Below are positions 9,161 to 29,206 of a stretch of DNA of 39,945 nucleotides, piece by piece (the first letter of the stretch is position 1; every line of letters begins with the position of its first letter). Made by a program: the position numbers and the translations under genes. Origin of the DNA: Bacteroidota bacterium (GTDB lineage: Bacteria; Bacteroidota; Bacteroidia; Flavobacteriales; Flavobacteriaceae). Where the stretch lies: the NCBI GenBank assembly GCA_024280145.1, contig JAJRQR010000084.1, positions 1 to 39,945 of the forward strand, in the 5' to 3' direction. The notes beneath the pieces were generated by a model that saw only the letters and a list, made by a program, of their open reading frames with translations, did not search any database and was not told where the DNA came from.

Positions 9161-10465
9161 ATGAAAAACATATTTTTTATACTTCTTTTTAGTTTTTTAG
9201 CCACTGCTACTTTTGCACAAGAATTTGCAAGTCATAACGTAAAAAAAGGCGAAACTATTTACAGCATTGCCAAACAATACGGTGTTTCTGAAAGTTTATT
9301 ATATCAATTAAATCCAGATGTCAAAAACGGAATTAAAACAGGAGATTTTTTAATTGTTACTGCTCAAAGGTCAGTTGTTCTTAAAGATTTAAGAAAACAC
9401 CGAGTAAAACGTAAAGAAACCATAAAGAGCATCGCTTTAAAATATAATATTACCGAAGATGATTTAAAAAAATACAATAAAAATCTGTATGCTAGGGAAG
9501 TTAAAAAAGGAGAAAAATTAAATATTCCTGTTTTTGGAAAAACAGCTATAAATACAGAAACTATAGAGGTTGAAAAAGACACAGTTTCAAAACATATTGT
9601 GTTGCCAAAAGAAACCAAATACGGTATTGCAAGAAAATATGGGATCTCGATTGCTGAATTAGAGCAACTAAATCCAACTATGGGAGAAAGTCTTCAGATA
9701 GGAGAGGAAATTGTAGTTCCAAATAAAGTGATTTCAGACGATTCTACAATAATTGAAGAAGCTAATTTTGAGTATTATGTGGTTCAACCAAAAGAGGGTT
9801 TTTTCAGATTAAAAGTTAAATTAGGACTTTCTCAAGAAGAAATTGTTTCATTAAATCCGTATGCGAAAGACGGTTTAAAAGAAGGAATGATTTTAAAGAT
9901 TCCGAAAAGTGAAATTGATGTAAATAAATTTGAAGCCGTTAACCTTGAAGATCATATAGTAAATTATAAAAAGAAACATTTGGTGGTGATGCTTCCGTTT
10001 AATTTAAATAAAATTTATTTAGATTCCACCGATGTAAATAAAGAATTATTAAAAACTGACGGGACTCTTAGAGCCGCTATAGATTTTTACAGTGGAGTTT
10101 TAATGGCAACCGAATTTGCTAAGGATAATAATATTTCAACTCAGATAGATATTTTTGATACAGAAGGCAGTGTGACTAAAGTTGGACAGATATTAAAAAC
10201 AAATGATTTTGATAATGTGGACGCTGTTATTGGCCCTTTATTAAGCAAAAATATAGAGAAAGTGGCTTCCAGTTTACAGTCAGAAAATATTCCGGTTTTT
10301 TCACCTTTAAGCAAGGTGAAAATTAAGCAATATTCTAACTTGTACCAGACCATACCTTCCAATGAATTGAGGGGAAGTGCATTGTTAAACTATATTAAGA
10401 AACATCAAGATACGGTTACTGTTATTGTGATTACGGGTAAGGAATGGACTAAAATAAAGGAATAA
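9161..10465 (+). CDS. LysM-repeat / periplasmic-binding-like protein, N-terminal part (frameshifted)
   Basis: 434 residues with a signal peptide (1-20, ending TFAQ). Four LysM peptidoglycan-binding modules lie at about 21-67, 79-123, 144-187 and 205-248, each with the V-K-x-G/K-E-T-x-x-x-I-A-x-x-Y-x-I/V pattern or a variant. From about 275 (LVVMLPFNL) a type 1 periplasmic-binding fold begins, related to amino-acid ABC transporter receptors. The frame ends at KIKE, in the middle of that fold. The fold resumes two bases later in another frame; one extra A in the run 10451-10454 gives ...TKNKGIIMKALPNAKT and a single protein of about 634 residues, in line with flavobacterial homologues as I remember them. 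Its likely role is at the cell wall or in the periplasm. Confidence 0.85.
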   Translation: MKNIFFILLFSFLATATFAQEFASHNVKKGETIYSIAKQYGVSESLLYQLNPDVKNGIKTGDFLIVTAQRSVVLKDLRKHRVKRKETIKSIALKYNITEDDLKKYNKNLYAREVKKGEKLNIPVFGKTAINTETIEVEKDTVSKHIVLPKETKYGIARKYGISIAELEQLNPTMGESLQIGEEIVVPNKVISDDSTIIEEANFEYYVVQPKEGFFRLKVKLGLSQEEIVSLNPYAKDGLKEGMILKIPKSEIDVNKFEAVNLEDHIVNYKKKHLVVMLPFNLNKIYLDSTDVNKELLKTDGTLRAAIDFYSGVLMATEFAKDNNISTQIDIFDTEGSVTKVGQILKTNDFDNVDAVIGPLLSKNIEKVASSLQSENIPVFSPLSKVKIKQYSNLYQTIPSNELRGSALLNYIKKHQDTVTVIVITGKEWTKIKE

Positions 10466-10467
10466 TT

Positions 10468-11064
10468 ATGAAAGCATTGCCCAATGCAAAAACCATTACT
10501 CCTGAAAAAGGAAATTATTTGTATGTTGAAAATATTAAAGCAAAGTTAGATTCAAATAAAGAAAATTGGGTGATCTTAGAGTCCGACAACTCTATTTTAG
10601 TCAGTAATGTAGTTGGCTTATTGAATGGTTTTCTAGGAAAAATAATTAACACGGAAGGTTATGAATCTAAAGAAATAAAAATTCGCCTTTTTGCGATTAA
10701 TAAGAATAAAGCATTTGAATACGATGATGTTTCTAACCCTCACCTTGCAAAATTAAATTTTACTTTTCCGTCGGTGAGTAAGCATTACGAGTATGATATT
10801 ATGACTCCTTTTTTAGTGAGTTATAAAAATAAATATGGGGTGCTTCCAAATAAATATACCATCCGTGGTTTTGATGTCACTTATGATGTTCTGCTAAGAT
10901 TAGCCAATGCTGAAACTCTTGAAGAAGCTTCAGGAAACGAAATTCAAACAGAATATATTGAGAATAAATTTCAATATATTTTTAGTCAAAATACAGGATA
11001 TATAAATCAAGCTTTTTACATTGTAAAATATAATCATGAACTTAAGATGGAAGTGGTTGAATAA
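10468..11064 (+). CDS. C-terminal part of the LysM / periplasmic-binding protein, in another frame
   Basis: 198 residues that look like the second half of the type 1 periplasmic-binding domain begun in the preceding frame: ENWVILESDNSILVSNVVG, then SKHYEYDIMTPFLVSYKNKY, then NKYTIRGFDVTYDVLLRLA. It has no signal peptide, so as a separate protein it would stay in the cytosol and be useless for a wall or periplasmic role. The ATG at 10468 sits 2 bases past the upstream stop, so coupled translation is formally possible. A frameshift in one gene is the simpler reading. Confidence 0.75.
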   Translation: MKALPNAKTITPEKGNYLYVENIKAKLDSNKENWVILESDNSILVSNVVGLLNGFLGKIINTEGYESKEIKIRLFAINKNKAFEYDDVSNPHLAKLNFTFPSVSKHYEYDIMTPFLVSYKNKYGVLPNKYTIRGFDVTYDVLLRLANAETLEEASGNEIQTEYIENKFQYIFSQNTGYINQAFYIVKYNHELKMEVVE

Positions 11065-11675: not shown

Positions 11676-13733
11676 ATGAAAATATTTTTAAAAGTTTTTA
11701 TCGTACTATTTTTATCTCAATTTTCATTTGCTAATGGAGTTGTAATTGTTGATGAAGAAGAGGGAGTTTATTTAACATTAACAGGAACTCAAATTGATGT
11801 AAATGTTCAAAATCAAATAGGCACAATAATAACTAGTCAAGTTTTTATTAATGATTTGGGATTGGGTTCTCAGGTTATAAAATATGGCTTTCCTGTACCT
11901 AATGGAGCTTCAGTGACTCAATTGCGATGGAAGATAAATAATGGTGATTGGGAAATTGCAATATTTGAAGTTGGAGGTGATCCAGGAGGGGGAGGTAATA
12001 ATAATATGCATCCTAACTTGGTAAATTACTTAGGTAGTTCTCCTCTGTTTTTTCTGTTTAATGATGAAATAGAAGAAAACAGTGTTATTGAAGTTGAATT
12101 AACTTATGTAGAATTACTAAGCTATAGTTTTAATAACGTAACATTTGAATACCCTAGTGATTATTCACTTATTCAATCTGGGATTATAGTAAATTCTCAA
12201 AATTTTGACTTTAACTTATTTTCTGACAGAACAATAGATAATATTGAGCTTTTAAACAATGTAGGAACAATATCAAATGATGGTAATGTAGCGACAGTAA
12301 CAATTAATGTAAATGAATCAACTTCAATTAATGATATTCTTATTATTTACGAATTAGCTTCAGATGAATTGGGAGTAATTCCTTTTAGCACCTTTTTAGA
12401 AGAAGGGGTAAATGAATGTGATAATTTTGGGAATGGTTTTTTTGGATTAGTTGTAGAACCTGAGTCTAATGCTAATACAGAGGTAATTGATAAAAATTTT
12501 ATTCTTGTAGTTGATAAGTCGGGTAGCATGACTGGTAATAAGATTGAACAGGCAAAAGATGCCGCCTACTTTATTGTAAATAACTTGAATTTTGGCGATT
12601 ATTTTAATATTGTTGACTTTAGCAGTGATGTTGACTCATTTAGCCCTAGTTTAGTTGAATATACTGTTGAAAACAGAAATAATGCTTTAACATATGTAAA
12701 TAATATTAGTGCAGGTGGAGGAACAAATATATCCGAATCTTTAGTAGTTTCAATCAATCAATTTGATGCGATTTCTGAAGATAGTGCTAATATAATTGTG
12801 TTTTTTACAGATGGACAAGCTACTTCTGGGCAGACTAATACAAGTGCAATATTAGATATTGTACAAAGTACAATTTTAGCAAATGAAACTGAGATATTCC
12901 TGTTTACTTTTGGAATTGGAGAAAATGTAACAACAGATTTATTAACTTTACTTGCAGTACAAAATAATGGGTTTGTTACTTTTCTTGGGGATGATGAAAT
13001 TACAGATGTAATTTCTAATTTTTATTTAACAATTAGAAATCCCGTATTATTAAACCCTATAATTACGGTCGAGCCAATAGGAGCTATAAATAATGTTTAT
13101 CCAGACCCATTGCCAAACTTATATAAAGGGCAACAATTAATTTTTACTGGAAGATACACTGTTCCACAAGATATTTCATTAACATTGACAGGAACAGCCT
13201 TTAATCAAAATGTAGAGTATAGTTATGATTTTAATTTAAGTGATCAAAATAATGAAGGTTATGCTTTTTTGCCAAAATTATGGGCGAAAAATAAACTTGA
13301 AAGCTTGCTTATAGACTATTATTCTTTTCCAGAAGGATCGCCTGAGGCAGAAGAAATTTTAGCAATTATTGAGGAAACTAGTATTTGTTATCAAGTTTTA
13401 AGTCCTTTTACATCTTTAGGAGATGGCGGCACTTTAGGAATTGAAGAGTTTATGGAAAACGAATCAAATGCATTGAAGTTTTTTCCAAATCCATTTTCTG
13501 ATGAAACAAAAGCATTTGTGAATTTAAAAGAAGCCAATGAAATTTTAGTTAATATATACTCTATTGGTGGTAAATTAGTAAAAACAATAAGAATTGATGG
13601 TGTTGTTGGAAATAATATAATTACTTGGAATGGAAATGATGGTAGTGGAGTTAATTTGAAATCAGGGATTTATATTTATACCATTTCTATTGGTGATAAA
13701 AAGACTTATTTCGGAAAACTTATAAAAAATTAA
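11676..13733 (+). CDS. VIT / von Willebrand A domain protein with T9SS sorting tail
   Basis: 685 residues from the ATG at 11676, chosen because it opens a proper signal peptide (MKIFLKVFIVLFLSQFSFA). An upstream in-frame ATG at 11625 overlaps the previous gene and would bury that signal. The first ~200 residues resemble a VIT domain (TSQVFINDLGLG, KYGFPVPNGASV). A vWA domain follows, with an intact MIDAS D-x-S-x-S (VVDKSGSMTGNK) and VFFTDGQATSG. The last ~80 residues are a T9SS sorting domain (FFPNPFSDET, SGIYIYTISI). It is probably a metal-dependent adhesive protein on the cell surface. Its stop codon overlaps the likely start of the DUF3820 gene. Confidence 0.88.
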   Translation: MKIFLKVFIVLFLSQFSFANGVVIVDEEEGVYLTLTGTQIDVNVQNQIGTIITSQVFINDLGLGSQVIKYGFPVPNGASVTQLRWKINNGDWEIAIFEVGGDPGGGGNNNMHPNLVNYLGSSPLFFLFNDEIEENSVIEVELTYVELLSYSFNNVTFEYPSDYSLIQSGIIVNSQNFDFNLFSDRTIDNIELLNNVGTISNDGNVATVTINVNESTSINDILIIYELASDELGVIPFSTFLEEGVNECDNFGNGFFGLVVEPESNANTEVIDKNFILVVDKSGSMTGNKIEQAKDAAYFIVNNLNFGDYFNIVDFSSDVDSFSPSLVEYTVENRNNALTYVNNISAGGGTNISESLVVSINQFDAISEDSANIIVFFTDGQATSGQTNTSAILDIVQSTILANETEIFLFTFGIGENVTTDLLTLLAVQNNGFVTFLGDDEITDVISNFYLTIRNPVLLNPIITVEPIGAINNVYPDPLPNLYKGQQLIFTGRYTVPQDISLTLTGTAFNQNVEYSYDFNLSDQNNEGYAFLPKLWAKNKLESLLIDYYSFPEGSPEAEEILAIIEETSICYQVLSPFTSLGDGGTLGIEEFMENESNALKFFPNPFSDETKAFVNLKEANEILVNIYSIGGKLVKTIRIDGVVGNNIITWNGNDGSGVNLKSGIYIYTISIGDKKTYFGKLIKN

Positions 13734-13767
13734 CCCTAATCATTTAATAGAACTCGCAAATTACAAA

Positions 13768-13938
13768 ATGCCTTTCGGAAAATTTAAAGGGTACTACCTC
13801 GTAAATATTCCCGAATATTATTACGTTTGGTACAAGCGAAAAGGGTTCCCACAAGGAAAGCTCGGAAGAATGATGCAAGAAATGGATGAGATAAAAATTA
13901 ACGGACTGGAAGATCTAATTCGAAAACTCATTAAATAA
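13768..13938 (+). CDS. DUF3820 family small protein (start uncertain, coding likely from 13729)
   Basis: The frame KMPFGKFKGYYLVNIPEYY ... WYKRKGFPQGKLG ... EIKINGLEDLI matches the DUF3820 family, small cytosolic proteins of unknown function usually near 70 residues. From the ATG at 13768 the product has only 56 residues. The family-like segment NHLIELANYK lies upstream of that ATG, and the frame is open back to 13729, where an ATT overlaps the first base of the vWA stop codon. No ATG, GTG or TTG is available between. Either ATT is used, giving 69 residues and translational coupling, or the original start was lost when the vWA gene came to lie upstream. Confidence 0.75.
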   Translation: MPFGKFKGYYLVNIPEYYYVWYKRKGFPQGKLGRMMQEMDEIKINGLEDLIRKLIK

Positions 13939-22486: not shown

Positions 22487-23433
22487 TGCAGAATAGAGTT
22501 ACCGAACTTTTTAATATTCAATATCCAGTTATTCAAGCAGGAATGATTTGGAACAGCGGTTGGCGATTGGCAAGTGCTGTAAGTAATGCTGGAGGATTGG
22601 GGCTTTTGGGAGCTGGATCAATGTATCCTGAAGTACTTCGGGAACATATTCATAAATGTAAAAAAGCAACCAATAAACCCTTTGGGGTGAATGTTCCAAT
22701 GTTATATCCAAATATTGAGGAAATCATTCAGATTATTATTGAAGAAGGAGTGAAAATTGTATTCACTTCCGCAGGAAATCCAAAAACGCACACTTCTAGA
22801 TTAAAGGAAAACGGAATAACGGTAGTTCATGTGGTGAGCAGTGTAAAATTTGCATTAAAATCGCAAGAAGCTGGTGTAGATGCTGTGGTTGCTGAAGGTT
22901 TTGAAGCTGGAGGACACAACGGAAGAGAAGAAACTACCACTTTTACATTGATTCCAATGGTAAAAGAAAAGCTAGAAATTCCATTAATAGCAGCAGGAGG
23001 AATTGCAACAGGTAGAGGAATGTTAGCTGCTATGATGTTGGGTGCCGATGGTGTTCAAGTAGGTAGTAGATTTGTTGCCAGTAAAGAATCCAGTGCGCAT
23101 ATTGCTTTTAAAAATATGGTTGCTGAGGCTAAGGACGGTGATACAATCTTAACCTTAAAAGAATTGGCACCAGTACGGTTATTGAAAAATAATTTTGCAA
23201 AAGAAGTAATGGAACTCTATAAAACGAATCCATCGGTTGAAGATATTAGAGCATTACTTGGAAGAGCAAGAGCCAAAAAAGGGATGTTTGAAGGGGATTT
23301 GGTAAATGGTGAGTTAGAAATTGGTCAAGTTGCAGGTTTAATTAATGAGGTAAAACCCGCTGCTGATATTGTTAAGGAAATGATTTTGGAATTTAAAGGA
23401 GCAAGTTCTGAAACACAGAATTTTAATTTCTAA
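22486..23433 (+). CDS. Nitronate monooxygenase (FMN-dependent, NPD family)
   Basis: 315 residues, TIM-barrel flavoenzyme of the nitronate monooxygenase / 2-nitropropane dioxygenase family; the class also includes enoyl-ACP reductase FabK-like proteins. Signs are YPVIQAGMIW near the start, PFGVNVPM, AEGFEAGGHNGR (FMN and active-site region with the family His) and LIAAGGIATGRGM ... GADGVQVGSRF (phosphate binding). The start is a GTG at 22486 that overlaps the last base of the protease stop (TAGTG). Coupling a cytosolic flavoenzyme to a secreted protease is probably genomic packing, not shared function. It converges on the AstE-like gene with an 11-base overlap. Confidence 0.88.
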   Translation: MQNRVTELFNIQYPVIQAGMIWNSGWRLASAVSNAGGLGLLGAGSMYPEVLREHIHKCKKATNKPFGVNVPMLYPNIEEIIQIIIEEGVKIVFTSAGNPKTHTSRLKENGITVVHVVSSVKFALKSQEAGVDAVVAEGFEAGGHNGREETTTFTLIPMVKEKLEIPLIAAGGIATGRGMLAAMMLGADGVQVGSRFVASKESSAHIAFKNMVAEAKDGDTILTLKELAPVRLLKNNFAKEVMELYKTNPSVEDIRALLGRARAKKGMFEGDLVNGELEIGQVAGLINEVKPAADIVKEMILEFKGASSETQNFNF

Positions 23434-24628
23434 GCCACAAAACATTCTCATATTCTTCTTTCCTTGAAGCCGCTTCTCTATTTTTTATAACCAAATGATT
23501 TTCATCAATTTTTTTACTTCGGTAGCCCAATAAATGAAAAAATTGTTTGGCAAATAACCAAGCTATTTTCCGGTTTACAATGAGTGTGTCTTTTTTGTCA
23601 GAAAGCCAATTTACTCCAGGCATCAAGGGTAGTATTTTGTCGAGTCTTATTTTCCTAACATAACTTGATAATTTTAAAAATATAGAGGGAATTCTTCTAA
23701 TTGAAAAATAACCATCATCTCCTTGACTTTGGTATTGAGGCATTAAAATTCTTCCTTGTTGTTTAGCAATAATTGTTTCACCGTCACTATCTGCTAATTC
23801 TTGACCTTTATTAATTCGTTGAAAATTTAAAAACCCAGGTTTCATAGTAAAGTTTTCATCTTCTTGGATTCTATAATGATAATAAATTTCATAAATATTT
23901 CGAGAATCAACAGAAGTTTTTGCTAGTAAATCGTAATAACATTGAAAATCGATTTCTTCTTTTGAAATTGCTTCAGTATAAACTAAGGATTGATAAATAA
24001 AGGCTTTATGATTTTCAATAGACGAAAGACTATCGTGTTGTCCTCCTTCAAAACCAAAGGCTACATAACCCAATTCGTTGATGTAACTTAATAAGGGACC
24101 ATCTAAATATTCTTCAATTCCTAAGATTAAAGGAACTGGATATTGCTCGGTGAATTTTCGATTGATTAAACTATCATTCACCGTTAAAAAGGGTATAGTC
24201 TCACTAGAAGTAGTATGAAGATCCATAAAATAAAAAGGACCTTCTTCCGTAGTAAGTATATTGTTTATAATGTTGAAAATATTTAGCTGTTGGATAGTAT
24301 CTCCTCCAACTTTTTCAATATTACCAGATTTTATTTGTTGCATTCGTTCCGAAGTCCACATTCGGTTGAGGTCTTGATTTATAAATCGAGAACCATTTTC
24401 TAAGGCGGTTAAATTTCCGCTTATTGCATAAATATTTCCTTTTATTGGAAGGGTTTTTCCTTCAATTTCCTTTAAAACTTGATGGAGCGCAAAAATTCCT
24501 GATGGTTCATTACCGTGAATTCCTGCTGTAAAAATTAGAGTAGGTCCAGGCTGATTTCCTTTTATTTCTCCTATAATTCGATTGACTTCAATCGTCTCAT
24601 TTAAAGCTTTACTAAAAACTTTCGTCAT
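23423..24628 (-). CDS. Succinylglutamate desuccinylase / aspartoacylase-like hydrolase
   Basis: 401 residues from the ATG at 24628 (MTKVFSKALNE). An earlier in-frame ATG at 24697 overlaps the preceding gene and adds a non-family leader. The zinc-dependent AstE/AspA carboxypeptidase fold is shown by FTAGIHGNEPSG (H-x-x-E zinc ligands), SRFINQDLNRMW (N-x-x-R substrate site) and YFMDLHTTSSETIPF (third His ligand). Enzymes of this group cut an amide bond between an acyl group and an amino acid. It lies 2 bases behind the GCS2-CBS gene, so it is surely co-transcribed. The true substrate is unknown; the neighbour suggests a product of that ligase. Confidence 0.85.
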   Translation of the reverse strand: MTKVFSKALNETIEVNRIIGEIKGNQPGPTLIFTAGIHGNEPSGIFALHQVLKEIEGKTLPIKGNIYAISGNLTALENGSRFINQDLNRMWTSERMQQIKSGNIEKVGGDTIQQLNIFNIINNILTTEEGPFYFMDLHTTSSETIPFLTVNDSLINRKFTEQYPVPLILGIEEYLDGPLLSYINELGYVAFGFEGGQHDSLSSIENHKAFIYQSLVYTEAISKEEIDFQCYYDLLAKTSVDSRNIYEIYYHYRIQEDENFTMKPGFLNFQRINKGQELADSDGETIIAKQQGRILMPQYQSQGDDGYFSIRRIPSIFLKLSSYVRKIRLDKILPLMPGVNWLSDKKDTLIVNRKIAWLFAKQFFHLLGYRSKKIDENHLVIKNREAASRKEEYENVLWLRN

Positions 24629-24630
24629 TG

Positions 24631-26487
24631 TTATGCAATTATATCTTTGATGGTGATAATCCCGACTAAACATTTTTCTTGAACCACTGGTAAGCAACCA
24701 ATGTCCTGCAGTTTCATTAAATGAATGGCTTCTAAAATTTTAGTTTCAGGGTGAGCAATGTAAACATTTTTCATCATTATATCTGCAACAACACAATCAA
24801 TATCGCAATTTTTATTTTTCTTAAATTTTTCTAAATGTGCCCAAGTTAAAAGTCCTACTAATTCCCCTTTTATGTTTTCAACAGGAACGTGATGAATGCC
24901 TTTCCATTCCATAATACTGGTTGCTAAATCTGCTAGATCGTTTTCGTGGATGGTAAACAATTGAGTAGACATTACGTGACCAACCAGATGAGCATCTTGG
25001 TATTTATTAGGTAAATTCTCATACATTGGCCATTGATGTACAGGCATTCCTGTTTCTTGATTTTTATACATTAATTTGGTTAATGCTCCAAGGGCATCAT
25101 CTTGTTTTAATGTTTTTCTGAGGTGGCGATAATTATTCACTCCCCATTGTGCTCCAGTAATATTTTCGGCTCTGTCTTTTATAACTCCTAATAAGCGATC
25201 AATGTCTTTTTTATCAATTCCTTCGTTTTCTAAACCTTTTTTAGCAATAGGAATTAATTCTTGAACTACTAAATCTCGAACTGAAATTTTCTTGCCCATC
25301 CAAGTCATTACAGATTCTTTACCGGTTCTTGCTGCCTTGATAAAATTTGCTTTGGCATCTTTAAAGTCCATCACACTAGGCATATCATCAAATTTTGATG
25401 GTCGACCCTTCATTAAACCTACCCAAAAAGCAAAGTTTGCCATTTCATCTAAAATCGTTGGCCCGGAAGGAATATATCTATTTTCAATCCGAAGGTGTGC
25501 TTTCCCATTTCCAACTCCATAACAAGGACGGTTCCATCTGTAAACAGTGCCGTTGAACGTAGTTAGCGCTTCTAATTTCGGAACTTTTCCATTTTTAATA
25601 TCTTCTAAGGAATCGTTTTCAATGTCTTTTGCTAAAATAATTTTATGACTAGCAATGTCTGTTTTAAAAATCTCCAACACACTTCCTGTTGCCCATTCTT
25701 TACTAAATGAAACTCTGGATAATTTATCTTCTAATGCGTGTGAAGAATTTCGGGTGTCAATACTTTGTTGAAATAAAGCAATTCGAGTTTCGCTCCAAAG
25801 CTCTCTTCCTAGTAATAACGGTGAATTTGAGCAGATTCCTAGTAAGGGACCAGTAATGGTTTGTGCCCAATTATAGCTAGAAAGAAAATCGTCTGGTTCT
25901 ATCTGAAGATGCAACTGAAAACTAGTATTACAACCTTCAAAAAGCACTGAATTATGTTTGATAAATAGTTCGTCAACCCCTCGAATATGCATTCTGAAAT
26001 CTTTCCCTCGAAGTTCCTTAAGCATATCATTCAACATCCAATAACGATCCATTGGCGTCATATAATCAAATTCCAATTCTCTTTTTGTAATGGTTGGAAG
26101 TATTCCGGTAAGGACAATTTTATTATTATATTTTTCAGCAGATTTTTTTGCTTTTGCAAGTAAAGTAGTTAATTGTTTTTCTACTTTTGAAAAAGCATCC
26201 TTCTTTAATTCAATGGGATCTAAATTAATTTCAAGGTTAAATAAAGCAATTTCAGTTGTAAAGTGGGGGTCGTCAATATCTTTTAATATTTTGGCAGATT
26301 TTTTAGAAGGTCGCCAGTTTTCGGTAACTAAACAAAATTCTTGCTCCGATCCAATTCTTGTAATATTAGTTTCAAATAACCCTTTATCAAGCATTATCTC
26401 TAATGCTTCTACATCATTGAGTAACTGTCTAATAAATTTAGATCTTGCTTTTTTATCGGTGATGGTGTTAATTTTTTGATCTCCCAT
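24631..26487 (-). CDS. GCS2-like carboxylate-amine ligase fused to CBS domains
   Basis: 618 residues, cytosolic. Residues about 40-430 match the glutamate-cysteine ligase family 2 (YbdK-like): ITRIGSEQEFCLV near the start (acidic metal and substrate site), FQLHLQIEP, and AHLRIENRYIPSGPTILDEM (family R-x-E-x-R-x-x-x-S-G-P). Residues about 495-618 are two CBS domains (MSTQLFTIHENDLADLATSI ... GIHHVPVENIKGELVGLLTW; IMMKNVYIAHPETKILEAI ... GCLPVVQEKCLVGIITIKDI), which usually sense adenine nucleotides. So this is probably an ATP-dependent amide-forming enzyme under nucleotide control. The substrate is unknown; simple gamma-glutamylcysteine synthesis is not assured. Confidence 0.8.
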   Translation of the reverse strand: MGDQKINTITDKKARSKFIRQLLNDVEALEIMLDKGLFETNITRIGSEQEFCLVTENWRPSKKSAKILKDIDDPHFTTEIALFNLEINLDPIELKKDAFSKVEKQLTTLLAKAKKSAEKYNNKIVLTGILPTITKRELEFDYMTPMDRYWMLNDMLKELRGKDFRMHIRGVDELFIKHNSVLFEGCNTSFQLHLQIEPDDFLSSYNWAQTITGPLLGICSNSPLLLGRELWSETRIALFQQSIDTRNSSHALEDKLSRVSFSKEWATGSVLEIFKTDIASHKIILAKDIENDSLEDIKNGKVPKLEALTTFNGTVYRWNRPCYGVGNGKAHLRIENRYIPSGPTILDEMANFAFWVGLMKGRPSKFDDMPSVMDFKDAKANFIKAARTGKESVMTWMGKKISVRDLVVQELIPIAKKGLENEGIDKKDIDRLLGVIKDRAENITGAQWGVNNYRHLRKTLKQDDALGALTKLMYKNQETGMPVHQWPMYENLPNKYQDAHLVGHVMSTQLFTIHENDLADLATSIMEWKGIHHVPVENIKGELVGLLTWAHLEKFKKNKNCDIDCVVADIMMKNVYIAHPETKILEAIHLMKLQDIGCLPVVQEKCLVGIITIKDIIA

Positions 26488-26624: not shown

Positions 26625-29138
26625 TTACATATGGTTACCAAAGAAAATCGCATTCATTAATAGTTTGTTAGTTCCGTACCAAAATGCTCTGAAATTGGTA
26701 TTGTCTGTAAAATAAATAACTTTTCCACTTCCTAAATTTCCTACTTTAAACATTGCCGTGTTTTTTAACTCAGAAAGATTTTTATCTGAAATATAACCAC
26801 TTAATAAAGGACTCTCTGTGTATTTTATAGGATTGTTATAGCTGTTTTTGTCGGCTTCCATAAAGATGGTAGAATTTCTAAAAACAGGTAGCGTATTATT
26901 TTTATATCCAAAAGCAATCGGATGAGAGCGATCGAGTTTTGTATCGAAAATTGCGCCGCCAATTACCTGTGCTCCAAAATAATTTCTTTTTTGTTCAAAG
27001 GAAATTATTTGAGTAGAATCTTCTTTCTTTTTAAATTTAATTTTCATCAACTCATTACTGTTAAACCATCTGCCTGCGTTTTTATAACCGATTAATGTTC
27101 CTCCGTTTTGAACCCACGTTTTTAATTGTTTTGCTTCTTCTTTACTAAGTGCACTTCCCCAACTATTCGCTAAAATGATATCGGTATAGCTACTTAAATC
27201 GGTGCTAGAAAAATCACGAGTATCTAATTTTGTAATTAACATATCATAACGCTGGTCTAATAAATGCCAAATTTCACCAGCATCGTAAGGAGTAATCCCA
27301 TCACCAACAATTAAGGCAACTTTTTGTGGTTCAATTATTCTGAAATTTGGGCTTCCTAAATTAATTCCTTTCGCCATTCCAGTGCTTACACTTGTGATAG
27401 TTATATTACTTTCGGAAGCTACTTTTTTTATAAATGAAGCCAACTCGGAAGCATTTAACTTTTGGTTTTGAACAGGAATTAATATCGTTCCGTAGTCATA
27501 GTTTTTGTTTTCAACTGAAAAAGGCTTCATACTTACTTTTGCTCGCAATCCTTTGACAAGAATTTTGTTTAATGCTTTTGGTGTGTTATAATCGTGCCAT
27601 TCTATTAAATATGCGTAGTTTGAAGTATTTGGAACTACAATTGAAGGTTTCTCTAATTGAGTAATTAAATCGCCAGATCTGCTATTAGTTTCGTTTTCTT
27701 CATAATCCAAATTAAACGCCAAAGGGAACGTCCAGGCGCTCACATCATAAAATAAGCTATCTTGAAAAGTGGTTCGTTTTTGAAACATTGCCTTCATCAA
27801 ACGATGTTGTTTTTGGTTCTTCGGAATTACATAACTATATCCCTTTTTATAGTTTTTTCCATTTTTTGAAAAGTTGGATGTTAGTTCGTGAATTTCAATT
27901 TTATGACGCTTCATAATTTCTGCAAGTCGATATGCTTTTGTTGCATCTTTTTCATCTCCACAAACAATAACGCCTCCTTTTGAAGCTTCTTTTTTAGCAT
28001 TGCTATAAAAGTTTTTTTGATAATCTAATAATTCTTTTCGCATAGATACAGCAGCATCTAAAGTAGAAAGCGCTGCGGTAAATTGATTGCGAATGGTAAA
28101 CGGAAAAGTGAGTATTCCGTTATCACTTTCTTGAGCGTGACCTCTTGAGGATGCCTGCTCAAAAAGGATCCCAATACCTCCATTAATATCTGGGAATGTG
28201 GATCCTTTTCCGTAGTAAAAATCATCAAAACTCTCTTTACTATAATAAAAACTTCCAATTTTATCGAAGGCTTTTCCGTGAAATTTAGCAATAGCTCCCG
28301 TAAGTTCTTGATTCTTTTTAGGAGTCATTGGGTTAGTTCGAGAGGGGATTCCTGGTTGAAAAAAGAACGTAGAGTTTGTTCCCATTTCATGATGGTCTGT
28401 TAAAATATTTGGATACCAATTATGAAAGGTTTCAATTCGTGCTTGACTTTCTGGTAATTGTACAGGAAGCCAATCTCGGTTCATATCAAACCAATAATGG
28501 TTAGTACGTCCGCCTGGCCAAACCTCGTTGTATTCTCTATCATTTGGGTCAGGGTTTATGTTTTTACTTTTATTACTATTTGCCCAATATGCAAAACGTT
28601 GTAAGCCATCAGGATTGTAGGAAGGATCAAATAAAATCACTGTATTAGTAAGTATTTTATCAATTTTTTCGCCTTGAGCAGCTGCTAAATAGTAAGCTGC
28701 TACCATTGCAGCATTGGAACCACTTGGTTCGTTTCCGTGGATTGAAAAACCTTGGTAAACCACTACGGGCAAATTATCTGTGTTGGTTGAATTTGTTTCA
28801 GTAAGAGAAACATGTTCTTTTCTAATATCTTCTAATTTGGAATGGTTTGCTTCCGAAGTAATATATACAAGGAGCAAAGGTCTTCCTTCAAAAGTAGTGC
28901 CTCTGTTTTCAATACTAATTCGTGGACTTGCTTCTGCTAATTCATACATATAAGTAACCAGCTTGTCGTGAGTGATGTGCCAATCACCAATTTCGTAACC
29001 AATTACGCTTTCGGGAGTTGGAATGTTTTTGTTATAAGTCACATCATCTGGCAGAAAATAATCTAACTTTACATGGTAATCTTGTGAAAAAAGGGATGAT
29101 GAAAGTAGTAATAATGAAAGGCTAAATAGGTGTTTCAT
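26625..29138 (-). CDS. Secreted M14 zinc carboxypeptidase with a C-terminal amidotransferase-like domain
   Basis: 837 residues from the ATG at 29138, which opens the signal peptide MKHLFSLSLLLLSSSLFSQ; an upstream in-frame ATG only adds residues before it. Zinc ligands are H134 and E137 in SIHGNEPSG, and a His in LTDHHEMGTN (about 248-253). Substrate-site motifs NPDGL and DMNRDW are present. FEQASSRGHAQE probably holds the catalytic Glu. The region from VALIVGDGITPYDAGEIWHL onward resembles a class I glutamine-amidotransferase-like fold (IILANSWGSALS, NGGTLIGYKNAG) and may be structural. It is exported, probably to the periplasm or surface, and digests peptides from the C-terminus. Confidence 0.9.
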   Translation of the reverse strand: MKHLFSLSLLLLSSSLFSQDYHVKLDYFLPDDVTYNKNIPTPESVIGYEIGDWHITHDKLVTYMYELAEASPRISIENRGTTFEGRPLLLVYITSEANHSKLEDIRKEHVSLTETNSTNTDNLPVVVYQGFSIHGNEPSGSNAAMVAAYYLAAAQGEKIDKILTNTVILFDPSYNPDGLQRFAYWANSNKSKNINPDPNDREYNEVWPGGRTNHYWFDMNRDWLPVQLPESQARIETFHNWYPNILTDHHEMGTNSTFFFQPGIPSRTNPMTPKKNQELTGAIAKFHGKAFDKIGSFYYSKESFDDFYYGKGSTFPDINGGIGILFEQASSRGHAQESDNGILTFPFTIRNQFTAALSTLDAAVSMRKELLDYQKNFYSNAKKEASKGGVIVCGDEKDATKAYRLAEIMKRHKIEIHELTSNFSKNGKNYKKGYSYVIPKNQKQHRLMKAMFQKRTTFQDSLFYDVSAWTFPLAFNLDYEENETNSRSGDLITQLEKPSIVVPNTSNYAYLIEWHDYNTPKALNKILVKGLRAKVSMKPFSVENKNYDYGTILIPVQNQKLNASELASFIKKVASESNITITSVSTGMAKGINLGSPNFRIIEPQKVALIVGDGITPYDAGEIWHLLDQRYDMLITKLDTRDFSSTDLSSYTDIILANSWGSALSKEEAKQLKTWVQNGGTLIGYKNAGRWFNSNELMKIKFKKKEDSTQIISFEQKRNYFGAQVIGGAIFDTKLDRSHPIAFGYKNNTLPVFRNSTIFMEADKNSYNNPIKYTESPLLSGYISDKNLSELKNTAMFKVGNLGSGKVIYFTDNTNFRAFWYGTNKLLMNAIFFGNHM

Positions 29139-29165
29139 GTGAGTGGATTTATTTCGTATAAAGAT

Positions 29166-29206
29166 AAAAAAAAACATCCCTTCAAACTAAATTTAAAGGG
29201 ATGTTT
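29166..29206 (-). terminator. Intrinsic terminator of the DUF3276/PUR gene
   Basis: Read on the minus strand, a stem of about 11 bp (arms 29206-29195 and 29182-29172, loop of 12) is followed by T9. It sits between the DUF3276 stop and the M14 start, so the M14 gene should have its own promoter. Confidence 0.85.

Follow-up and report, generated by a model that had tools for sequence, protein, structure and literature searches.

A CBS-fused GCS2-type ligase and its AstE/aspartoacylase-type neighbour as a candidate amide make-and-break pair in Bacteroidota

Amide ligase/hydrolase pairs are a known kind of system. In ergothioneine synthesis EgtA adds a glutamyl group and EgtC removes it, EgtC having a fold different from that of the hydrolase considered here. 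We describe a gene pair in a 39,945-nucleotide stretch of a Flavobacteriaceae genome (contig JAJRQR010000084.1 of assembly GCA_024280145.1, Bacteroidota bacterium; the whole stretch is hereafter the window), in which a ligase of predicted GCS2 fold with two fused CBS domains (LIG) is followed by a putative zinc hydrolase of the AstE/aspartoacylase type (AST). Among described systems, passages of the literature present RimK/RimB (PMC12239564) and PafA/Dop (PMC7947786) as amide ligase/hydrolase pairs, report cyanophycin synthetase paired with isoaspartyl dipeptidases (PMC10206079), and mention uncharacterised ligases of GCS2 size that lie close to a thiol peptidase or to a gamma-glutamyl cyclotransferase (PMC2588565).

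Compared with these, LIG and AST share with cyanophycin synthetase/CphZ the combination of a ligase and an AstE-type isodipeptide hydrolase, as far as passages of PMC10206079 describe it, but cyanophycin synthetase (CphA) is an ATP-grasp/Mur ligase that makes a polymer, while LIG differs in fold and lacks a domain for polymer formation. The EgtA/EgtC pathway likewise combines a ligase of the GCS2 type with a hydrolase of gamma-glutamyl amides, but LIG is not associated with EgtD. RimK/RimB and PafA/Dop share the logic of writing and erasing an amide, with other ligase or hydrolase folds and with protein or peptide targets. The CBS-fused GCS2 ligase with an AstE partner of its own appears to be a new form of such pairs; a literature search that left most subscription papers outside its scope found no description of a GCS2-CBS fusion or of its AstE pairing, and a 2009 amidoligase survey may mention them. 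Our preferred reading, to which we give a rough probability of 0.45, is that the two genes form a make-and-break unit, in which LIG would couple an amino acid into a gamma-glutamyl-type amide, the same amide would be hydrolysed by AST and the CBS domains would tune the synthesis.

Predicted folds and conserved residues of the two proteins

LIG is a 618-amino-acid (aa) open reading frame (ORF) and AST a 401-aa ORF, both on the minus strand, AST starting with ATG at 24628 and ending at 23423. The junction reads TAA-CA-ATG, leaving 2 bases between the ORFs, and both lie where an earlier reading of the window from its letters (the sequence-only reading) had placed them. The features are as follows.

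24631..26487, minus strand: LIG, predicted GCS2-fold carboxylate-amine ligase with a fused CBS pair (ORF; AlphaFold2 model; fold matches to YbdK and plant glutamate-cysteine ligase)
25018..26487, minus strand: GCS2-type catalytic domain, about residues 1-490 of LIG (YbdK match over residues 25-478; PF04107 in 19/26 aligned members)
26338..26352, minus strand: LIG G-x-E-x-E metal/ATP signature, G46-S-E48-Q-E50 (conserved in 160/160)
25477..25491, minus strand: LIG strand R333-x-E335-x-R337 (three residues kept in 160/160)
24820..24990, minus strand: LIG CBS domain 1, His551 in place of the ribose-binding Asp in the window copy (PF00571; column counts)
24634..24804, minus strand: LIG CBS domain 2, T612-x-x-D615 motif intact (PF00571, residues 567-617)
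23423..24628, minus strand: AST, putative AstE/aspartoacylase-type zinc hydrolase (PF24827; AlphaFold2 model; fold matches)
24506..24517, minus strand: AST zinc motif H38-G-N-E41 (46/46; aligns with HGNE of AstE and aspartoacylase)
24362..24373, minus strand: AST D86-L-N88-R89, carboxylate-binding type motif (46/46; aligns with DLNR of aspartoacylase)
24215..24217, minus strand: AST H138, putative third zinc ligand (46/46; aligns with DLH of aspartoacylase)
24047..24049, minus strand: AST E194, likely general base (46/46)
23426..23680, minus strand: AST C-terminal extension, about residues 317-401 (ORF lengths; profile alignment of AstE proteins partnered with MATCAP)

The family sample (f1) comprises 149 Flavobacteriaceae genomes, each from a different genus, of which 48 encode full-length LIG, the other 47 copies sharing 43-66 percent identity with that of the window. 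The LIG alignment (A1) excludes L041, with an interrupted LIG frame, and L056; the AST alignment (A2) excludes L075, which has no AST, and L077, whose AstE is not adjacent to LIG; a further alignment (A3) holds 26 of the 48 LIG members.

The Pfam family GCS2 (PF04107) matched neither the window LIG nor any other protein of the window's own genome, while in alignment A3 it matched the N-terminal part of 19 of the 26 relatives at E values up to 10 (best 4.2e-7; the window member is not among the 19). The AlphaFold2 model built from 46 sequences (mean predicted local distance difference test score, pLDDT, 89.3; predicted template modelling score 0.87) has its best fold match in YbdK (1tt4; Z 39.2, root-mean-square deviation (rmsd) 2.3, 341 residues aligned), followed by plant glutamate-cysteine ligase (2gwc; Z 33.2, rmsd 2.7, 377 aligned), yeast glutamate-cysteine ligase (Z 28.8), bacterial GshA types (Z 22 to 26) and Dop/PafA (Z about 17 to 22). 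Searching solved structures by sequence with the LIG profile returned a single chance-level match, a ribosomal protein at E 0.2. We therefore use the label GCS2-like for LIG, because its relatives match PF04107 and its predicted fold matches YbdK and glutamate-cysteine ligase; LIG is, assigned by predicted fold only, a divergent member of the GCS2 branch. The ligase with two CBS domains named in the sequence-only reading is thus borne out, with a predicted GCS2 fold and PF00571 found twice.

Among 160 distinct CBS-fused LIG ORFs longer than 580 aa, residues G46, E48, E50, H193, Q195, R333, E335 and R337 are kept in all, and E79, E86 and N88 in 159. The motif GhExE is described as the metal/ATP signature of the carboxylate-amine ligase superfamily in passages of PMC2588565, according to which ligases of GCS2-type fold activate a carboxylate, usually the gamma-carboxylate of glutamate, and couple it to an amine. 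In LIG this signature reads G-[A/S]-E-Q-E, the h position being Ala in 42 and Ser in 4 of the 46 aligned sequences. Features common to LIG, YbdK and the GCS2 ligases (PF04107) are the fold (Z 39), the G-x-E-x-E signature and the acidic and arginine residues of the core. LIG differs from them in its longer catalytic part (about 490 aa, where canonical GCS2 ORFs in the same family of genomes have about 366-450 aa), in its CBS pair and in being missed, in the window copy, by the Pfam model. Canonical GCS2 proteins form a separate set, present in 25/149 family genomes (5/48 LIG-positive versus 20/101 LIG-negative).

AST matches PF24827 (AstE_AspA_cat; E 4.5e-18, 65.9 bits against a cut-off of 25), and its AlphaFold2 model (pLDDT 93.1) matches the folds of AstE (Z 23.4), DoeB (22.3), aspartoacylase (AspA, 20.6) and CphZ (20.1), the last in a structure crystallised with beta-Asp-Arg. 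Residues H38, E41, R81, D86, N88, R89, H138 and E194 are invariant in 46/46 sequences, and the HGNE, R81, DLNR and DLH elements align with aspartoacylase, which agrees with the zinc hydrolase seen by the sequence-only reading. In carboxypeptidase A and aspartoacylase an Asn-Arg motif binds the substrate carboxylate and a Glu acts as base; we take H138 to be the third zinc ligand, E194 the general base and D86-N88-R89 the carboxylate-binding residues of AST. AST scores far below the NCBIfam equivalog cut-offs for succinylglutamate desuccinylase AstE (61 bits versus 305.65) and aspartoacylase (44.2 bits versus 180). The fold and the checked catalytic residues are therefore common to AST and the AstE/aspartoacylase family (PF24827, including DoeB and CphZ), from which it is set apart by these scores, by some 85 additional residues at the C terminus and by its GCS2-type ligase partner. 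LIG-partnered AST ORFs are at least 370 aa long in 120 of 127 cases (most 383-435 aa), and AstE paralogues partnered with MATCAP proteins (n=16; see below) have 242-307 aa and can be aligned to the AST profile no further than about position 315-337, thus lacking the extension.

The CBS domains are the sole Pfam families seen in LIG (PF00571, E 6.6e-21, two stretches), and in the model the CBS part resembles AMP-bound CBSX2 and AcuB bound to AMP/ADP (Z about 18 to 19). The ribose motif of nucleotide-binding CBS domains is G-h-x-T/S-x-x-D. In CBS2 its Thr is present in 46/46 and its Asp in 45/46 aligned sequences (T612 and D615 in the window copy), while in CBS1 the window copy has T548 and, for the Asp, His551, in a column that is Asp in 32/46 and His in 9/46 (window included). 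The nucleotide-binding residues, whose absence was to count against the proposal in the sequence-only reading, are thus intact in CBS2 and, in the window copy, altered in CBS1. Control of LIG by the energy state through these domains, as proposed there, is a possibility.

Distribution and co-inheritance of the pair

Within Flavobacteriaceae the pairing is obligate for the long form of AST (defined by E below 1e-150), which occurs in 46 of the 48 LIG-positive and in none of the 101 LIG-negative genomes, far beyond chance (Fisher p 1.6e-36, ignoring phylogeny). AST is the next same-strand gene in 46/48 LIG loci, the exceptions being L075 and L077. A further 80 loci, all of them in named genomes, were the highest-ranking of at least 561 confirmed stretches; at least 4 of the 80 repeat genomes of the first set. 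AST lies next to LIG in 70 of these best 80, and in L143 it follows a stop-interrupted LIG. The other nine loci without adjacent AST are L086, L087, L109, L116, L117, L121, L130, L134 and L152, of which L086, L130 and L134 were judged to be contig ends. In L121, from a Saprospiraceae genome without adjacent AST, LIG is followed by a 630-aa protein without a Pfam match at E 0.001 (12042-13934, plus strand). Six named genomes were searched for AST (five without adjacent AST and that of L101 with it), giving some match in five, two of them weak. The apparently short AST of L133 is truncated by a contig end.

The two genes are also co-inherited. Over 127 distinct pairs, counted by sequence across the 128 loci plus later ones (the 128-locus count being inflated by the duplicates L094=L032, L111=L036, L112=L035 and L151=L038), 42 of the 64 strong splits in the LIG tree recur in the AST tree and none is in strong conflict, and LIG and AST distances correlate at r 0.75 against a maximum of 0.17 in 500 permutations. 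In 116 adjacent pairs the LIG stop and the AST ORF start lie -277 to +17 bases apart, the median being -8; the starts are those of the longest ORF, a choice that exaggerates overlaps.

No third partner is constant beside the pair. The window pair is flanked by an M14 peptidase gene and by ABC, dehydrogenase and NusB-like genes (the last three named by eye), another Flavobacteriaceae group has S41 and M1 peptidase genes (identified in L047), and f24 genomes have priA and scpB (identified in L220). In the window a gap of 137 bases separates LIG from the M14 zinc carboxypeptidase gene upstream of it (850 aa, with a weakly ThuA-like C-terminal part; 26625-29177, minus strand). Loci L032/L094 and L078-L081 have this gene immediately upstream as well, and in L031, L082 and L083 it stands one or two genes further away. 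As candidate downstream partners we rejected a pyridoxal-phosphate-dependent decarboxylase, found only in Sediminicola (L036 = L111, one genome) and not in L038, and a sulfate permease, one cluster that occurs in 6 loci (identified as SulP-type in L031), two of them from the same genome. An anti-phage defence role was set aside after PADLOC gave no match. A promoter scan was uninformative (16 found versus 19.4 expected). Elsewhere in the window, two plus-strand ORFs lying 2 bases apart in different frames (9161-10465 and 10468-11064) appear by eye to be parts of one LysM-containing protein, perhaps split by a frameshift.

More widely, LIG is present in 116/395 Bacteroidota genomes, with a tandem LIG-LIG-AST arrangement in f24 genomes. 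In 4/4 sampled genomes of genus g294 (family f52), a gene for an MscS-type channel lies, by coordinates, just 3' of a stand-alone CBS-fused LIG (9 bases apart as read in L228:5271-8321, minus strand; the other genomes are G443, G494 and G517), hinting at an osmotic role.

AstE-type hydrolases beside other ligases

AstE-type hydrolases adjoin ligases of other kinds as well. A three-gene operon in 16 Flavobacteriaceae genomes encodes a MATCAP/QEGLA protein, a GshB-like ATP-grasp protein and, last, the shorter AstE paralogue, the first two genes being confirmed by blastp in 16/16 loci and the ATP-grasp protein of L192 matching NCBIfam PRK12458 above its cut-off. These operons lie at L192:5666-9485 (minus strand), L193-L206 and L208. 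They seldom share a genome with LIG (1/48 LIG-positive versus 15/101 other genomes, p 0.02, unadjusted and ignoring phylogeny). In a related operon, seen in L209 and L211, an N-formylglutamate amidohydrolase gene replaces that of AstE. The Flavobacteriaceae genome G089 has an AstE gene 123 bases after that of a cyanophycin synthetase (TIGR02068, 1245 bits versus a cut-off of 850; L207:3363-7082, plus strand); because the isoaspartyl dipeptidase of Bacteroidota is called undiscovered in passages of PMC10206079, this AstE-type hydrolase is a candidate for that enzyme.

The sequence-only reading had suggested looking for co-occurring ATP-grasp genes. Among the ORFs of 165 LIG loci, GshB-like and CphA queries for such genes, together with queries for MATCAP and N-formylglutamate amidohydrolase, gave a single hit, an ATP-grasp gene in L116; distant RimK types could have escaped this search.

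In an unrooted AstE tree of 59 rows, covering 34/120 of the long LIG partners and leaving out the f18 AstE sequences, the MATCAP-partnered set forms one clade (support 100/99). On one side of it are the long LIG partners, on the other a second branch that holds six short f24 LIG partners (96/81), the CphA-linked AstE and L077. On the simplest count, AstE joined the CBS-fused LIG twice, with a diverged further case, in f18, beside a CBS-less LIG.

Proposed function and alternatives

The chemistry of the pair is read from fold and residues. LIG would make a gamma-glutamyl-type amide of an amino acid, with glutamate as the acyl donor, and AST, whose Asn-Arg motif should grip the carboxylate beside the cut bond, would hydrolyse LIG's own product and return the amino acids. 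Members of the AST superfamily of the CphZ type cut isodipeptides, according to passages of PMC10206079 and to structure titles. The opposite chemistries in one operon supposed by the sequence-only reading are plausible, since AstE-type hydrolases adjoin several different amide ligases. Together LIG and AST would determine how much there is of a gamma-glutamyl-type isodipeptide, a conjugate that would serve as a reserve or compatible solute. The C-terminal CBS pair probably tunes LIG via a nucleotide bound at CBS2, ionic strength being the second possibility, and through this tuning the conjugate pool would follow the cell state.

Several results weigh against this reading. The predicted fold of LIG indicates its reaction class only, not its substrate, and profile comparison with E. 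coli YbdK by sequence is insignificant (probability 0.8 percent, E 0.074). The ribose motif of CBS1 is degenerate in the window LIG, and f18 genomes have a form of LIG, about 480 aa long, without CBS domains; the CBS domains are not essential to the pair, because in 4/4 fetched f18 loci a diverged AstE comes after this form. Breakage by AST is not universal either, because 19 of the 40 loci fetched from the wider set have no AST beside LIG, and an AST search at E 1e-5 found no match anywhere in 16 of 21 genomes (18 from deeper lineages plus G513, G128 and G134); the co-occurrence in relatives expected by the sequence-only reading thus held in Flavobacteriaceae and broke down in part beyond it. 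In the deep lineages with LIG and no AST, the amide would be broken by other means or would need no breaking. The AstE tree may also reflect one ancestral pairing with later changes of partner. Finally, GshB-like genes are enriched in LIG genomes (31/48 versus 29/101, p 6.5e-5, unadjusted and ignoring phylogeny), which would fit a longer pathway.

A first alternative, unlikely in our estimation, is sequential protection and release, in which LIG adds a glutamyl group, enzymes encoded elsewhere modify the product and AST removes the group, as with EgtA and EgtC in ergothioneine synthesis. A GCS2-type EgtA and a glutamyl amide hydrolase provide the same two activities, and in L212 (4869-12304, minus strand) EgtB-like and EgtD-like genes lie directly upstream of LIG-LIG-AST. 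However, such ORFs occur in no other examined locus, EgtD (PF10017) is found in 17/48 LIG genomes versus 45/101 others (p 0.37, ignoring phylogeny; weak matches in G005, G123 and G148 excluded), none was found in the window's own genome, which is 87 percent complete, and no third gene is constantly adjacent to the pair. Ergothioneine as a general role, raised by L212, was rejected on the EgtD counts and on the lack of a further locus with EgtB-like or EgtD-like ORFs.

We think it still less probable that LIG acts as gamma-glutamylcysteine synthetase in making a low-molecular-weight thiol, which AST would recycle. The closeness of its fold to YbdK and the glutamate-cysteine ligases would fit, as would the enrichment given above, which concerns the stronger-scoring GshB-like proteins (PF02955). 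However, 17 of the 48 LIG genomes, including the window's own (incomplete) one, have no strong PF02955 match (E below 1e-30), and canonical GCS2 proteins form the separate set described above. Of three GshB-like loci fetched, moreover, L209 and L211 lie with the N-formylglutamate amidohydrolase and MATCAP genes rather than in a plain glutathione setting, and L210 has neither of these two genes. Glutathione synthesis is not required for LIG; the association of LIG with GshB-like genes is incomplete.

A write/erase role, with LIG attaching an amino acid or other small tag to a protein or peptide and AST taking it off again, seems improbable. The fold matches of LIG to Dop and PafA speak for it, as do the write/erase pairs RimK/RimB and PafA/Dop, so described in passages of PMC12239564 and PMC7947786, but AST is by fold nearest to small-molecule hydrolases. 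Mere inherited synteny without joint function, which some neighbourhoods shared among relatives beyond the pair would allow, is scarcely credible, as the pair stays joined while its flanks change, AstE types of separate branches are joined to LIG and no LIG-negative family genome holds a long AST.

The make-and-break reading can be extended to a broader proposal, speculative and on balance unlikely in its full form. AstE-type hydrolases would be a general eraser attached to unrelated amide ligases (CBS-GCS2, GCS2, GshB-like ATP-grasp with MATCAP, and cyanophycin synthetase), and the CBS-GCS2/AST pair would make an undescribed gamma-glutamyl isodipeptide in Bacteroidota, a reserve or compatible solute gated directly by ionic strength or by the nucleotide level, which the mechanosensitive channel standing in the hydrolase's place in one genus could vent. 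Many of the named hosts of CBS-GCS2/AST belong to what we take to be marine genera. The proteins concerned presumably carry such names as 'CBS domain-containing' and 'succinylglutamate desuccinylase/aspartoacylase family' in current annotation. If the proposed cycle is real, hundreds of species-level Bacteroidota stretches (at least 561 relatives) carry part of a self-contained small-amide cycle with its own sensor domain, and its study could name a new metabolite and give substrates to a large set of vaguely annotated proteins.

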